Shown here: one piece after another, positions 12,195 to 17,376 of the stretch
Numbering within the stretch: the stretch's first letter is position 1
Layout: each line of letters begins with the position of its first letter
Source: Hyphomicrobiales bacterium
Lineage (GTDB): Bacteria; Pseudomonadota; Alphaproteobacteria; Rhizobiales; Beijerinckiaceae
Length of the DNA: 56,408 nucleotides
Reading direction: 5' to 3'
Assembly (NCBI GenBank): GCA_947447895.1
Contig: CANFLM010000009.1
Location: forward strand, 1-56,408
The notes under the pieces: model-generated
The model's database searches: none
What the model saw: the letters and a program-made list of their open reading frames with translations, nothing else
What the model was told of the DNA's origin: nothing
Translations under genes and position numbers: made by a program

Positions 12195-12656
12195 TCACAG
12201 CGGGATCAGTGGCTCGTCTTTGACCTGCCCGAGCGTCAGGGCCGAACGAATGGTCCTGACATTAGGCAGGCCCGTCAATTCGCTGACCAGTGACTGGAAA
12301 CCGGCCAGATCGGGGGCCACGCATTTGAGCAGAAAATCGATGTCACCCGAGAGGGTCCAGCATTCGCGCACGGCGGGCCACGAGCGGATATGGGCGCGAA
12401 AGGCTTCGAGATCGCTCTCGGCCTGCGATTGCAGATGCACCATGGCAAACCAGACCACATCGACCCCAAGCTTTTTGGCATCGAGCTGGGCGCGGTAACC
12501 GGTGATGACCCCCGCCTCCTCCAGAGCGCGCACACGCCGCAGACAGGGGGGAGCCGACATGCCGATCCGCTTGGCCAATTCGACATTGGTCATACGGCCA
12601 TTGTTTTGCAATTCTTGCAAAATCGCGCGGTCTGTCTCGTCAAGTCTGATCGACAC
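12195..12656 (-). CDS. Lrp/AsnC family transcriptional regulator
   Basis: 153-residue feast/famine regulator. The N-terminal winged helix (LDETDRAILQELQNNGRMTNVELAKRIG begins at residue 5) has the recognition helix SAPPCLRRVRALEEAG. The C-terminal RAM ligand-binding domain is seen in the beta-strand pattern after residue 65. Its effector amino acid is unknown. It is divergent from the DUF1022 gene and close to trxB, a neighbourhood seen in other alphaproteobacteria. It converges with greA, sharing the terminator region. Confidence 0.92.
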   Translation of the reverse strand: MSIRLDETDRAILQELQNNGRMTNVELAKRIGMSAPPCLRRVRALEEAGVITGYRAQLDAKKLGVDVVWFAMVHLQSQAESDLEAFRAHIRSWPAVRECWTLSGDIDFLLKCVAPDLAGFQSLVSELTGLPNVRTIRSALTLGQVKDEPLIPL

Positions 12657-12762
12657 GGTTGACTCTCACCCTCTGTCAGTGCTCATCGCTTGTTTAGACG
12701 CGATCACGCATCAAGAACAACCTCTTTGTGACCCATTCTTTGTAACGATAAGGATATCAGGC

Positions 12763-13731
12763 GTGGCCTCACTGAAAACCGCTTGGATTATCACGGATGG
12801 CAAAGCCGGTGACGAGTTGCAATGCCTCGGGGTCACAGACGCCCTGCATCTGAAGCCAGAGATCAAGCGGGTCGCTCCGCGCAAGCCCTGGGTGTGGTTC
12901 GCTCCGTGGGGGCCGATGGATCCGAACGAGCATCCCGATACACCTGGTTCTATTCTCGCAGCCCCCTTTCCCGATCTGGTGGTGGCTTCGGGCCGCAGGG
13001 CGATCCCCGCTTTGCGGGCGATCAAGCGCGCCTCGCAAGGCAGGACCTTTACCGTCTGCCTGAAAGATCCCCGGACCGGCGCGGGCACCGCCGATCTGAT
13101 CTGGGTGCCCGAGCATGACAGGTTGCGCGGCCCCAATGTGCTGGTCACCCTGACCTCCCCGCACCGTTTGCAAATGGCGGCCATTCAGGCCGCCAGAGCC
13201 GAACCGCCACGCGCCCTGATGGCCCTGCCGCATCCACGTGTCGCCGTTCTGGTGGGAGGCGACAGCCGCAACCATCAGTTCACACCCGACGATATCGCCC
13301 GTTTTGTCGACCATCTGAAAAGCATCAGCCGGCAGGGTGCGGCACTGATTGTCACCCTGTCGCGCCGGACACCGCCTGCCCTCGCCGAAGCCGTGAAATC
13401 CGTGATTGCCGCTTCGGGCGGCTATATCTGGGATGGCACCGGCGCCAATCCCTATCTGGCCATGCTGGCTCTGTCCGACATGATCGTGGTCACCGCTGAT
13501 TCGGTGAACATGGTCGGCGAGGCCTGCATTACCGGCCATCCGGTTCTGGTTTTCGAGCCCTCGGCGCGACGTTTTGGCAATGCCGGGAAAATTAGACGCT
13601 TTATTCAGGGGTTAATTGACCACGGAGCTGTGCGTTTGTTTCAGGGCGGACTTGAAAGCTATGCATATGAGCCTTTAGACTCAACTCCGGTGATTGCGCA
13701 GGCCATCCGGCACGCCATATCCCACCGCTAG
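12763..13731 (+). CDS. ELM1/DUF1022 family protein (GT-B-like, mitochondrial-fission ELM1 homologue)
   Basis: 322-residue protein of the ELM1-like family, named after a plant mitochondrial fission factor; the bacterial function is not established. A GTG start at 12763 has AAGGA 8 bases upstream and gives the conserved opening ASLKTAWIITDGKAGDELQ. Other hallmarks are LVVASGRRAIPALRAIKR, VAVLVGGDSRNHQF and IVVTADSVNMVGEACITG, which resemble a UDP-sugar-binding glycosyltransferase-B fold. The open frame reaches further upstream, but that part lies antisense to the Lrp gene. trxB follows by 55 bp. Confidence 0.86.
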   Translation: MASLKTAWIITDGKAGDELQCLGVTDALHLKPEIKRVAPRKPWVWFAPWGPMDPNEHPDTPGSILAAPFPDLVVASGRRAIPALRAIKRASQGRTFTVCLKDPRTGAGTADLIWVPEHDRLRGPNVLVTLTSPHRLQMAAIQAARAEPPRALMALPHPRVAVLVGGDSRNHQFTPDDIARFVDHLKSISRQGAALIVTLSRRTPPALAEAVKSVIAASGGYIWDGTGANPYLAMLALSDMIVVTADSVNMVGEACITGHPVLVFEPSARRFGNAGKIRRFIQGLIDHGAVRLFQGGLESYAYEPLDSTPVIAQAIRHAISHR

Positions 13732-13786
13732 GCTTTGTTGACGATCCGACTGAACCGCCCCGACACTTGATTTGGAAACCATACCG

Positions 13787-14767
13787 ATGTCCTCGCCCGC
13801 GTCCAATCCGCATCACCATGCAAAATTGATCATTCTCGGCTCCGGTCCTGCCGGATATACGGCTGCGATCTATGCAGCACGTGCCATGCTGGAACCGATG
13901 CTGATTGCGGGGATGCAGCAGGGTGGACAACTGACCATCACCACCGATGTCGAGAACTATCCCGGCTTTGCCGATCCGATCCAGGGGCCCTGGCTGATGG
14001 AACAGATGCACGCCCAGGCTGTGCATGTCGGCACGACCATGGTGTCGGACCATATTCTGGAAGCCGACCTGTCGCAAAAGCCGTTCCGGCTGACCGGCGA
14101 TTCAGGGGCGACCTACAGCTGTGATGCGCTGATCATTGCCACCGGCGCACAGGCGCGCTGGCTCGGCATCCCCTCCGAAGAGGCCTTCAAAGGCTATGGT
14201 GTGTCGGCTTGCGCCACCTGCGACGGGTTTTTCTTCCGCAACAAGCAGGTCATCGTGGTCGGCGGCGGCAATACCGCAGTCGAAGAAGCGCTGTATCTGG
14301 CCAATCTGGCTGCCAAGGTCACCGTCGTTCACCGCCGCGACACCTTCCGTGCCGAAAAGATCCTGCAGGACCGTCTGTTCGCCCATCCGAAGATCGAGGT
14401 GATCTGGAACGCGGCCATCGACGAAATCACCGGCGACCAATCTCCGCCATCCGTCACCGGCGTGCGCCTGGTGGATACCCAGAACGGCAGCAAGCGCGAC
14501 ATTGCCGCCGACGGCGTGTTTGTGGCAATCGGCCACTCGCCGGCCAGCCAGCTGTTCGACACACAGCTGCGGATGAAGCAAGGCGGCTATATCTGGACCG
14601 CCGCCGATTCCTCGGCGACCTCGCTCGAAGGCGTATTTGCCGCGGGCGATGTCACGGATGATGTATTCCGCCAGGCCGTCACCGCTGCTGGCATGGGATG
14701 TATGTCTGCCCTGGAGGCAGAGCGTTGGCTGGCGGGCCATCAGGGTGAGCGTAAGGCAGCAGAATAA
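13787..14767 (+). CDS. trxB: Thioredoxin-disulfide reductase TrxB
   Basis: NADPH-dependent flavoprotein that keeps thioredoxin reduced. 326 residues from ATG 13787. FAD-binding [16 protein letters not shown] is at 18-33, the redox-active CATC at 142-145, NADPH-binding [14 protein letters not shown] follows near 160, and the C-terminal FAD motif is [10 protein letters not shown]. An in-frame TTG at 13772 would add five residues but has no support. The stop overlaps the start of the LysR gene (TAATG), so the two are probably co-transcribed and translationally coupled. Confidence 0.97.
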
Positions 14768-15693
14768 TGGGTATAACCAATCCGATTTACCAACCACCCG
14801 GCATCGACTGGGACAAGATCAGGATCTTTTACACCGCGGCCGAGGCCGGCAGCTTCACCCATGCGGGTGACAGCCTCGGCCTCAGCCAATCGGCGGTCAG
14901 CCGGCAGGTCGGCGCGCTCGAACGCGATCTCGGGGTCCCGTTGTTCCATCGCCATGCGCGTGGTCTGATCCTGACCGAACATGGCGAGCAACTGTTCCGC
15001 ACAGCCCGCGAGATGATGCTCAAACTGGAAACAACCCGCGCGCGTCTGACCGACAGCCGCGAACGCCCCAACGGCGATCTGCGGATCACCACCACTGTCG
15101 GCCTGGGCACCCATTGGCTGACCCCGCGGCTGGGCGAGTTCATGGATCTCTATCCCGAAGTGCGTGTGCAACTGATGCTGACCGACGAAGAACTCGATCT
15201 CTCGATGCGCGAGGCCGATATCGCCATCCGCCTGCGCCAGCCAACCCAGAGCGACCTGATCCAGCGCAAGCTGTTCACCGTGCATTTCCATGCCTGGGCC
15301 TCTGCCGACTATATCAAGGCCCATGGCGCGCCCAAGGATGTCGCCGATCTCGACAACCACCGCATCATGACCTTTGGCGGGATTGCCCCCTCTTATCTGG
15401 TCGGCGTGCACTGGCTGACCACGATGGGACGCGAGCCCCGCAATCCGCGCCTGCCCGGCCTGACCGTCAGCAATATCACCGCCTTGAAACGGGCTGTGGA
15501 ACGCGGTCTGGGCATTGCCGTGCTGCCCGATTATCTGGTGGAACCGGAATCGGGTCTCGTCCAGATTCTCACCAATATGGAAATGGCCACCCTCGACAGT
15601 TATCTCGCTTACCCCGAAGAGATGAAAACTGTCGCCCGCGTGCAGGTTTTCCGTGATTTTCTGGTCTCTAAAGCCCAACGCTGGACACATTGA
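14767..15693 (+). CDS. LysR-family transcriptional regulator
   Basis: 308 residues. The N-terminal winged helix-turn-helix (residues about 15-75) reads FYTAAEAGSFTHAGDSLGLS then SAVSRQVGALERDLGVPLF. The C-terminal periplasmic-binding-like effector domain follows from residue 95. The ligand is unknown. The gene overlaps the trxB stop by one base. LysR proteins often control nearby genes; the closest candidates are trxB itself and the possible small RNA immediately downstream, where a 7-bp inverted repeat lies 37 bp after the stop. Paralogues are abundant, so no symbol is given. Confidence 0.94.
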   Translation: MGITNPIYQPPGIDWDKIRIFYTAAEAGSFTHAGDSLGLSQSAVSRQVGALERDLGVPLFHRHARGLILTEHGEQLFRTAREMMLKLETTRARLTDSRERPNGDLRITTTVGLGTHWLTPRLGEFMDLYPEVRVQLMLTDEELDLSMREADIAIRLRQPTQSDLIQRKLFTVHFHAWASADYIKAHGAPKDVADLDNHRIMTFGGIAPSYLVGVHWLTTMGREPRNPRLPGLTVSNITALKRAVERGLGIAVLPDYLVEPESGLVQILTNMEMATLDSYLAYPEEMKTVARVQVFRDFLVSKAQRWTH

Positions 15694-15730
15694 CGGGATC
15701 ATGCGGCGGTTTGCTGCATTATTCATAAAA

Positions 15731-15757
15731 CGCATAACTGCCATGACGTCTTATGCG
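15731..15757. promoter_or_regulatory. Inverted repeat that may be a regulator site
   Basis: CGCATAA (15731-15737) and TTATGCG (15751-15757), perfect arms with 13 bases between. The size and spacing are compatible with a LysR-type site. It lies between the LysR stop and the RNA-like segment. Confidence 0.35.
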
Positions 15758-15789
15758 TTGCGCGCAGATCAGACTATTTGCTAGTCATG

Positions 15790-15954
15790 ATGTGTGGAAC
15801 ACAGCTTTTGTCCCTGTCATCCCCCCCTCCAGACGGGTCGATGAGAGCTCTTCCCTGGAAAGTGCCGTCCCCGCAAGGTGGCAGCCTTTTTCTCTAAGCC
15901 GGTTGTCCAAGACATGCTGTTTTCAGCGCGTTGTCTGGACGCCGGCTTTTTTTT
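15790..15954 (+). ncRNA. Candidate small RNA between the LysR gene and aspC
   Basis: An ORF-free segment with several possible hairpins and a strong intrinsic terminator, but no gene immediately upstream for it to terminate other than LysR about 200 bp before. Visible stems: TGTG-TGGAA-CACA (about 15791-15803), TCCAG...CTGGA (about 15829-15859), TGCC...GGCA (about 15863-15882), then the terminator. It lacks the SRP RNA core, tmRNA or RNase P RNA signatures as far as I can tell, and I do not recognise a riboswitch. The 5' end is a guess; no strong -10/-35 pair is visible. It could instead be the 3' untranslated region of trxB-LysR. Confidence 0.4.
15896..15954 (+). terminator. Strong rho-independent terminator
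   Basis: Long stem AAGCCGG...CCGGCTT with further pairing of TGTCCAAGAC with GTCTGGACG inside, followed by eight T residues (15947-15954). It ends plus-strand transcription before the convergent aspC. Confidence 0.82.
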
Positions 15955-15973
15955 GCTTCGTGCCATCCACCCA

Positions 15974-16003
15974 ACAAAAAACGCCCCGTTGTGGCGGGGC
16001 GTT
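15974..16003 (-). terminator. Rho-independent terminator of aspC
   Basis: 8-bp stem ACGCCCCG / CGGGGCGT (15981-16002) with loop TTGTGG; the A-run at 15975-15981 is a T-run on the minus strand. It lies 21 bp after the aspC stop. Confidence 0.85.
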
Positions 16004-16023
16004 GATTGGAAAGGGGATGGGGC

Positions 16024-17376
<1,353 letters not shown>

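Follow-up and report, generated by a model that had tools for sequence, protein, structure and literature searches.

A probable, strongly diverged AbcR-type small RNA downstream of a cysteine-free LysR-type regulator in a Beijerinckiaceae genome

What does a long intrinsic terminator serve when it closes a gap of about 260 bp behind a LysR gene, with no credible ORF in between? The first-pass annotation of a 56,408-nucleotide stretch of DNA from a Hyphomicrobiales bacterium of the Beijerinckiaceae (the window, by which we mean this whole stretch) raised the question and proposed an unannotated small RNA, with the LysR gene, a dyad and the RNA forming possibly a regulator and its target. Our analysis supports both ideas: the RNA body is conserved, is preceded by a promoter-like layout and is matched by a covariance model, and a VtlR/LsrB box lies inside the dyad at the published promoter distance. 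We conclude that 15793-15954 very probably encodes a strongly diverged trans-acting sRNA of AbcR type, and that the neighbouring LysR protein, the VtlR/LsrB orthologue, probably switches it on.

The locus and its regulator

On the plus strand, trxB, which encodes thioredoxin reductase (13772..14767; TIGR01292, 406.9 bits for a cut-off of 343.45), runs into lysR (14767..15693; 308 amino acids, PF00126 and PF03466), the stop codon TAA of the former overlapping the start of the latter (TAATG). Upstream of trxB lie an Lrp/AsnC-type regulator gene (12198-12656, minus strand) and an ELM1-like gene (12502-13728, plus strand); lrp-trxB-lsrB is presumably also the gene order in Sinorhizobium. On the other side of the gap, an aspartate aminotransferase-like ORF converges on lysR (16024..17367, minus strand, likely start near 17229; PF00155, 279.3 bits), its nearest NCBIfam model being aspartate transaminase with 561.4 bits, under that model's cut-off of 617. 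This convergent gene has its own separate terminator (15980..16003, minus strand), and the long intrinsic terminator with T8 (15896..15954, plus strand, from sequence and folds) therefore serves something on the plus strand.

We assign the window LysR as the VtlR/LsrB orthologue from its position directly after trxB and its closeness to the LsrB linked to ar15: the LysR that neighbours the ar15 pair of L096 shares 174 of 303 residues (57%) with it. Its best solved relative is 9hh1 (400.8 bits). Its close relatives (93-99% identity) belong to Rhizobiales/Hyphomicrobiales MAGs (L016-L019); more MAGs come next, together with Chelatococcus, Camelimonas, Microvirga, Salinarimonas and Methylobacterium.

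The gap opens with a small hairpin (ATGCGGC...GCTGCAT, 15701..15719, plus strand, from sequence and fold), possibly a weak lysR terminator, which is kept in the congeners L016 and L018 with G-C replacing a G-U pair, but not in L017. The perfect 7-bp inverted repeat pointed out by the first-pass annotation follows, with CGCATAA at 15731-15737 and TTATGCG at 15751-15757, forming the strandless dyad CGCATAA-N13-TTATGCG (15731..15757). Such repeats are common in this DNA, at least one being present in 78 of the 211 stretches of 267 bases tiling the window and three in the gap, so that the dyad matters only for its contents and conservation. The hairpins and the terminator with eight T (15947-15954) are likewise there as claimed; fold z-scores are -4.16 for 15694-15960 and -3.65 for 15770-15956, with 0 of 200 shuffles as good in either case. 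As for ORFs listed across the gap (43, 147, 41, 49, 72 and 80 amino acids), we rejected a coding reading because the C-run in the middle of the gap is C7 or C6 among relatives, a one-base difference, which bears out the earlier view that the gap holds no credible gene.

Promoter, seeds and likeness to the AbcR RNAs

In Agrobacterium the genes are ordered trxB-vtlR-abcR1-abcR2 and the VtlR box reads GCAT-N3-TG-N3-T (extracts of PMC7486931), and in S. meliloti the abcR1 promoter has the box at -61 to -49 (extracts of PMC8844928). The window box GCATAACTGCCAT (15732..15744, plus strand) fits the published consensus perfectly, inside the dyad. It is followed by a -35-like TTGCGC (15758..15763, plus strand) and, 17 bases 3' of that site, by a weak -10-like CTAGTC (15781..15786, plus strand), which would place the start of transcription near 15793. 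A box followed by 12-14 bases and TTGC occurs once in the 2.54-Mb genome and 0 times in the reversed control; per genome, the other four of the genus yield 1 to 8 matches, among them the orthologous site in G001 and G002, that of G003 ending in TTGT and so being unmatched.

The layout (a 13-base box, 13 further bases, TTG at offset 26 and the -10 at offset 49) was checked at 12 sites outside the genus, picked for a recognisable box: the box is perfect in 9 of them (changed in L026, L027 and the second copy of L096), TTG is at offset 26 in 11 (the exception being L103), and CATATC or GATATC is at offset 49 in 9 (the exceptions being L023, L103 and L047). The window and L016-L018 all possess the perfect box and TTG, and their offset 49 reads CTAGTC, CTACCC, CTAAGT and CTAGGT, so that the -10 is weak and variable in the genus. 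Changed boxes are found at many loci of other genera (the first copy of L024, L028, L029, L031, Microvirga, Salinarimonas and Camelimonas).

The putative RNA of about 160 nt (15793..15954, plus strand) was delimited from its conservation and from a covariance-model match at 15796-15954. The four-species consensus fold predicts stem-loop 1 (15803..15849, plus strand, with one pair compensated on both sides) bearing a 13-nt C-rich loop, stem-loop 2 (15858..15890, plus strand) and the terminator, whose outer stem is kept and whose inner part varies in length; changes on both sides affect 3 of the 53 pairs. AbcR1 and AbcR2 (alpha-r15, RF02345) carry the anti-Shine-Dalgarno motifs CUCCUCCC (aSD1) in loop 1 and UUCCCCUC (aSD2) between loops 1 and 2 (extracts of PMC8844928). 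Neither 8-mer occurs in 15793-15954, and C-rich counterparts occupy both places: the aSD1-like loop AUCCCCCCCUCCA (15819-15831, plus strand), containing C7-UCC, stands for the AbcR loop CUCCUCCC, and the linker UUCCCUGG (15851..15858, plus strand, predicted to pair in part with 15796-15799) stands for UUCCCCUC(UGG). The window RNA shares with the AbcR pair its place downstream of trxB-vtlR/lsrB on the same strand, a VtlR box of AbcR1 type with the promoter spacing, and the succession of stem-loop 1 with a C-rich loop, UUCCC linker, further stem-loop and terminator. It differs by a longer terminator stem (an RNA of about 160 nt versus 114-121 for AbcR), by the single copy found in this genome and by the lack of an RF02345 match; since both seeds are altered, we did not file it as a member of that family.

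Rfam gave no family at gathering score in the window, in agreement with the first-pass annotation, which had recognised no known RNA family. RF02345 itself, run over this genome with strict filters, had no match, and in 15640-16060 it stayed silent at E<=10; permissive matches there to BcKCsr2, asX2, Hrs1 and RNase MRP were far under cut-off and taken as chance. Of 16 family lysR loci scanned with Rfam, none gave a match above cut-off, and in the seven of them searched at E<=10 ar15 did not appear. RF02345 finds three copies in G058 (same order), of which two stand in tandem behind a trxB-LysR pair (L096), and weaker, sub-cut-off matches in five other genomes (L097-L101). The sites it found share with the lysR-linked RNAs of four genera a (C)CTCCC loop, then GTTCCCCTCTGG, then the terminator. 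In Microvirga, Chelatococcus, Salinarimonas and Camelimonas, where we found AbcR-like RNAs after lysR with no Rfam match in the loci scanned, the locus, the element order and the matching models (R1 and R2, below) are those of the window; these RNAs keep the CCTCCC loop and the GTTCCC(C)TCTGG linker, whereas the window genus has drifted from both. The RNA probably resembles a known kind (AbcR, ar15), by a likeness that lay beyond the reach of Rfam here and beyond the view of the first-pass annotation. A lesser likeness concerns suhB/mmgR (RF00519), which matches the RNA weakly (22.0-29.2 bits for a cut-off of 41) in 4 of the 7 outgroup loci scanned; a review notes, in the extract available, partial homology of ar15 to suhB/mmgR. 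RF00519 differs in having no match in the window region.

The training set of the covariance model R1 consisted of 20 family RNAs (19 loci) selected on the motif TTCCC(C)TCTGG, with zero sequences from the window genus or found by RF02345. Its top match in the 56 kb is the window site (15796-15954; 19.8 bits, E 4.7e-4, the next best reaching 9.7), a score that comes partly from the terminator, and the equivalent sites of L016-L018 gave E values of 1.1e-4, 4.1e-4 and 9.2e-3. When searched over all 88 sources, the window-genus values were 5.1e-4 to 0.042, the weakest lying close to a chance match at 0.063. R1 also finds 8 of the 8 RF02345-found sites given to it (E 1.3e-7 to 3.8e-14), and it matches downstream of lysR at 48 of the 80 lysR-orthologue loci among the 88 sources, 19 of these positives being its own sources, hence 29 of 61 among the others. 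The 32 misses comprise 26 loci of Methylobacterium or near it, and L019-L022, L052 and L059; L059, like L095, has fewer than 80 bases after lysR and is hence uninformative. Across 60 matches, in a model-fitted alignment that leans to structure and comes mostly from other genera, 94.2% of cells are paired and 23 of 24 pairs have changes on both sides, 0 of 500 shuffles scoring as high. A sequence-only model of the promoter and the 5' half, leaving out the terminator (R3), ranked the window site first in the 56 kb, marginally (11.8 bits, E 0.0088, against 11.2 for a chance match); with default filters it found only L016 among the four genus loci, and with filters off L016 and L017, and L018 by the promoter part only.

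Could the RNA then be activated by the LysR protein and yet have no AbcR descent, its C-rich loop and UUCCC having arisen independently? Its mode of action would then differ little, and we hold this origin to be improbable, if the best of the alternatives. The silence of RF02345, the altered seeds and the marginal result of R3 once the terminator is left out speak for it, as does the precedent of VrsA, an sRNA under a VtlR box, which VtlR drives in Agrobacterium through a site of the same consensus (extracts of PMC7486931); likened here by its description, VrsA differs in its length of about 300 nt and its place between other genes. However, the gene neighbour, the element order and the promoter layout match those of the lysR-linked AbcR-like RNAs of the family, and the R1 match spans the full length.

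Conservation within the genus

The window was compared with its congeners L016, L017 and L018. Identity is, respectively, 95, 86 and 89% from the box to the -10, 67, 44 and 22% in the 9 bases after the -10, 88, 92 and 91% in the RNA body, 58, 88 and 76% in the terminator, 48, 72 and 60% in the spacer 3' of it, and 73, 76 and 74% at lysR third codon positions. Box and RNA body are held tighter than the spacer and the silent sites, and mostly tighter than the terminator. The strong terminator that the first-pass annotation stressed is present, but its sequence is less conserved than the RNA body in all three congeners, and the box region surpasses it in two of the three; a conservation limited to the terminator, which that annotation had named as the outcome contrary to its proposal, is the opposite of what we find. 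The element stands in the gap of 4 of the 5 genus genomes examined, each of the 4 carrying the dyad core GCATAA...TTATGC, and is absent from G004 (same genus, LysR 93% identical), whose short gap has one terminator. A DNA search of 60 genomes with the whole gap found it in 4 of them, all in the genus and including the window's own genome, and in none beyond.

These comparisons bear on an origin as the lysR 3'-UTR, or by processing of the trxB-lysR message, in which case the long terminator would be there but a dedicated promoter would not. The first-pass annotation had rated a 3'-UTR origin equally possible. The RNA does share the strand of lysR, whose stop codon is about 100 nt upstream, and the -10-like site is weak. 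We nevertheless regard this origin as very improbable: a conserved VtlR box and promoter spacing lie within the gap, the 9 bases separating the -10 from the RNA body are variable (22-67% identity) between conserved flanks, and in Chelatococcus L025 the RNA has two tandem copies with a perfect box in each. A mere terminator with an incidental dyad and nothing functional between is hardly credible, even though 7-bp inverted repeats are common (78 of 211 stretches) and G004 manages without the element, since the RNA body and box region beat lysR third codon positions in conservation in three species and the structure and layout are common to other genera.

We retain the AbcR-type reading because of the same place, strand and regulator, the promoter layout, the R1 match, the conservation, the covariation, the presence of hfq (in 5 of 5 genus genomes) and the unique combination of box and TTGC. 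Counting against it are the silence of RF02345, the marginal R3 result, the altered seeds, the weak -10, the changed boxes elsewhere and the case of G004.

Spread, proposed function and meaning for the family

A further model, R2, includes the window genus, and some of the genomes searched with it may be the same as source genomes. At E<=1e-7, a cut-off chosen after reading the weak genus matches, it hit 69 of 199 family genomes and 19 of 43 genera; at E<=0.001 it hit 84 of the 199. Beyond the lysR-linked site of G000-G003, it gave at most 28.9 bits in the five genus genomes. Six weak matches (L108-L113) were set aside: each finishes in a plain GC terminator, and a VtlR box is lacking altogether in L113 and, for the other five, in the stretch reaching from 200 bases upstream to 180 bases downstream. 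With these discounted as plain terminators without a box, we count a single copy in this genome and zero in G004. Two of them, L109 (G000:C73:1899-1985) and L111 (G003:C89:23186-23276), mark the conserved 3' end of one same gene, with CCCTCC/CTCCC before a GC terminator, 24.9-28.9 bits with R2 and no VtlR box; we read them as 3' ends, possibly with a 3'-UTR RNA.

Elsewhere in the family, Chelatococcus L024 and L025 have two tandem RNA copies within about 550 bases after lysR, like abcR1-abcR2 of the Rhizobiaceae. Three or four separate R2 matches occur in each of G019, G148 and G191, mostly strong in the first two, which suggests that the RNA family has expanded in some genera. The Methylobacterium loci among L064-L095 keep the lysR orthologue, with no adjoining element found by R1; VtlR there therefore has other targets or the RNA lies elsewhere. 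In an AT-rich MAG (L047, 4994-5112) the perfect box, a TCCTCCC loop and the terminator are kept and the second seed is mostly lost. Literature searches for AbcR1 with Beijerinckiaceae or Methylobacterium, and for AbcR with Microvirga, found nothing; the alpha-r15 survey PMC3346310 lay outside this search, and an earlier report is possible. Some S. meliloti sRNA families reach the Beijerinckiaceae, AbcR not being named among them in the extracts of PMC3927594 and PMC7143759, and AbcR and ar15 are both absent from the main text of a Methylosinus transcriptome paper (PMC12403871).

By site, layout and orthology, the LysR protein would bind GCATAACTGCCAT and recruit RNA polymerase to the promoter at 15758-15786. 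An RNA of about 160 nt would be made, with the predicted stem-loop 1, linker, stem-loop 2 and terminator. By analogy with AbcR, whose RNAs quiet nutrient-uptake genes in rhizobia, the C-rich loop 1 and the UUCCC linker would pair, together with Hfq, with G-rich ribosome-binding sites of mRNAs, and the paired mRNAs, probably including those of uptake-system genes, would be translated less. We compared the leaders of binding-protein genes in five genomes (the 30 best loci for each of three Pfam families, 89 of 90 giving a start) with 82 background genes. Pairing is better in the leaders, both for aSD1 (p=0.06) and for aSD2 (p=2.5e-4) of the window RNA, and the difference is clearer with a plain anti-16S sequence (p=8e-7); the stronger Shine-Dalgarno sequences of the binding-protein genes are enough to account for their better pairing. 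G-runs occur in 9 of 60 leaders and in 3 of 75 background genes (p=0.027, the orthologues being non-independent), and in 5 of 18 in G004, which is without the RNA.

Finally, the regulator itself departs from its characterised relatives. LsrB of Agrobacterium is described as a thiol switch, its redox-active C144 and C273 being common to the LsrB of S. meliloti and B. abortus (extracts of PMC11975290). The window LysR has zero cysteines. When 33 family LysR proteins (within L016-L095) were compared over the matched stretch, 29 proved free of cysteine, and the one cysteine in each of the remaining 4 lies away from the three columns (147, 247 and 276) at which the L096 LsrB carries its own; at those columns, which from their position would correspond to Agrobacterium C144, C244 and C273, 0 of the 33 has a cysteine. 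With all three absent in 33 of 33, the signal to which the regulator responds is probably not thiol redox, and the sRNA link appears to be kept here without the thiol switch. More tentatively, and with the balance of our judgement somewhat against it, the VtlR-AbcR circuit may be separable from thiol redox sensing and perhaps older, the cysteine-free regulator reading another signal and the RNA being re-seeded, through its poly-C loop and shortened second seed, to a different target set in this apparently freshwater genus.

Together, these results indicate a well-studied rhizobial riboregulatory circuit across much of the family, where Rfam is silent in the loci scanned. Two roles of VtlR/LsrB come apart, the link to the sRNA being kept and the cysteines not, and the seeds altered in one genus would allow the co-evolution of seeds and targets to be tested.
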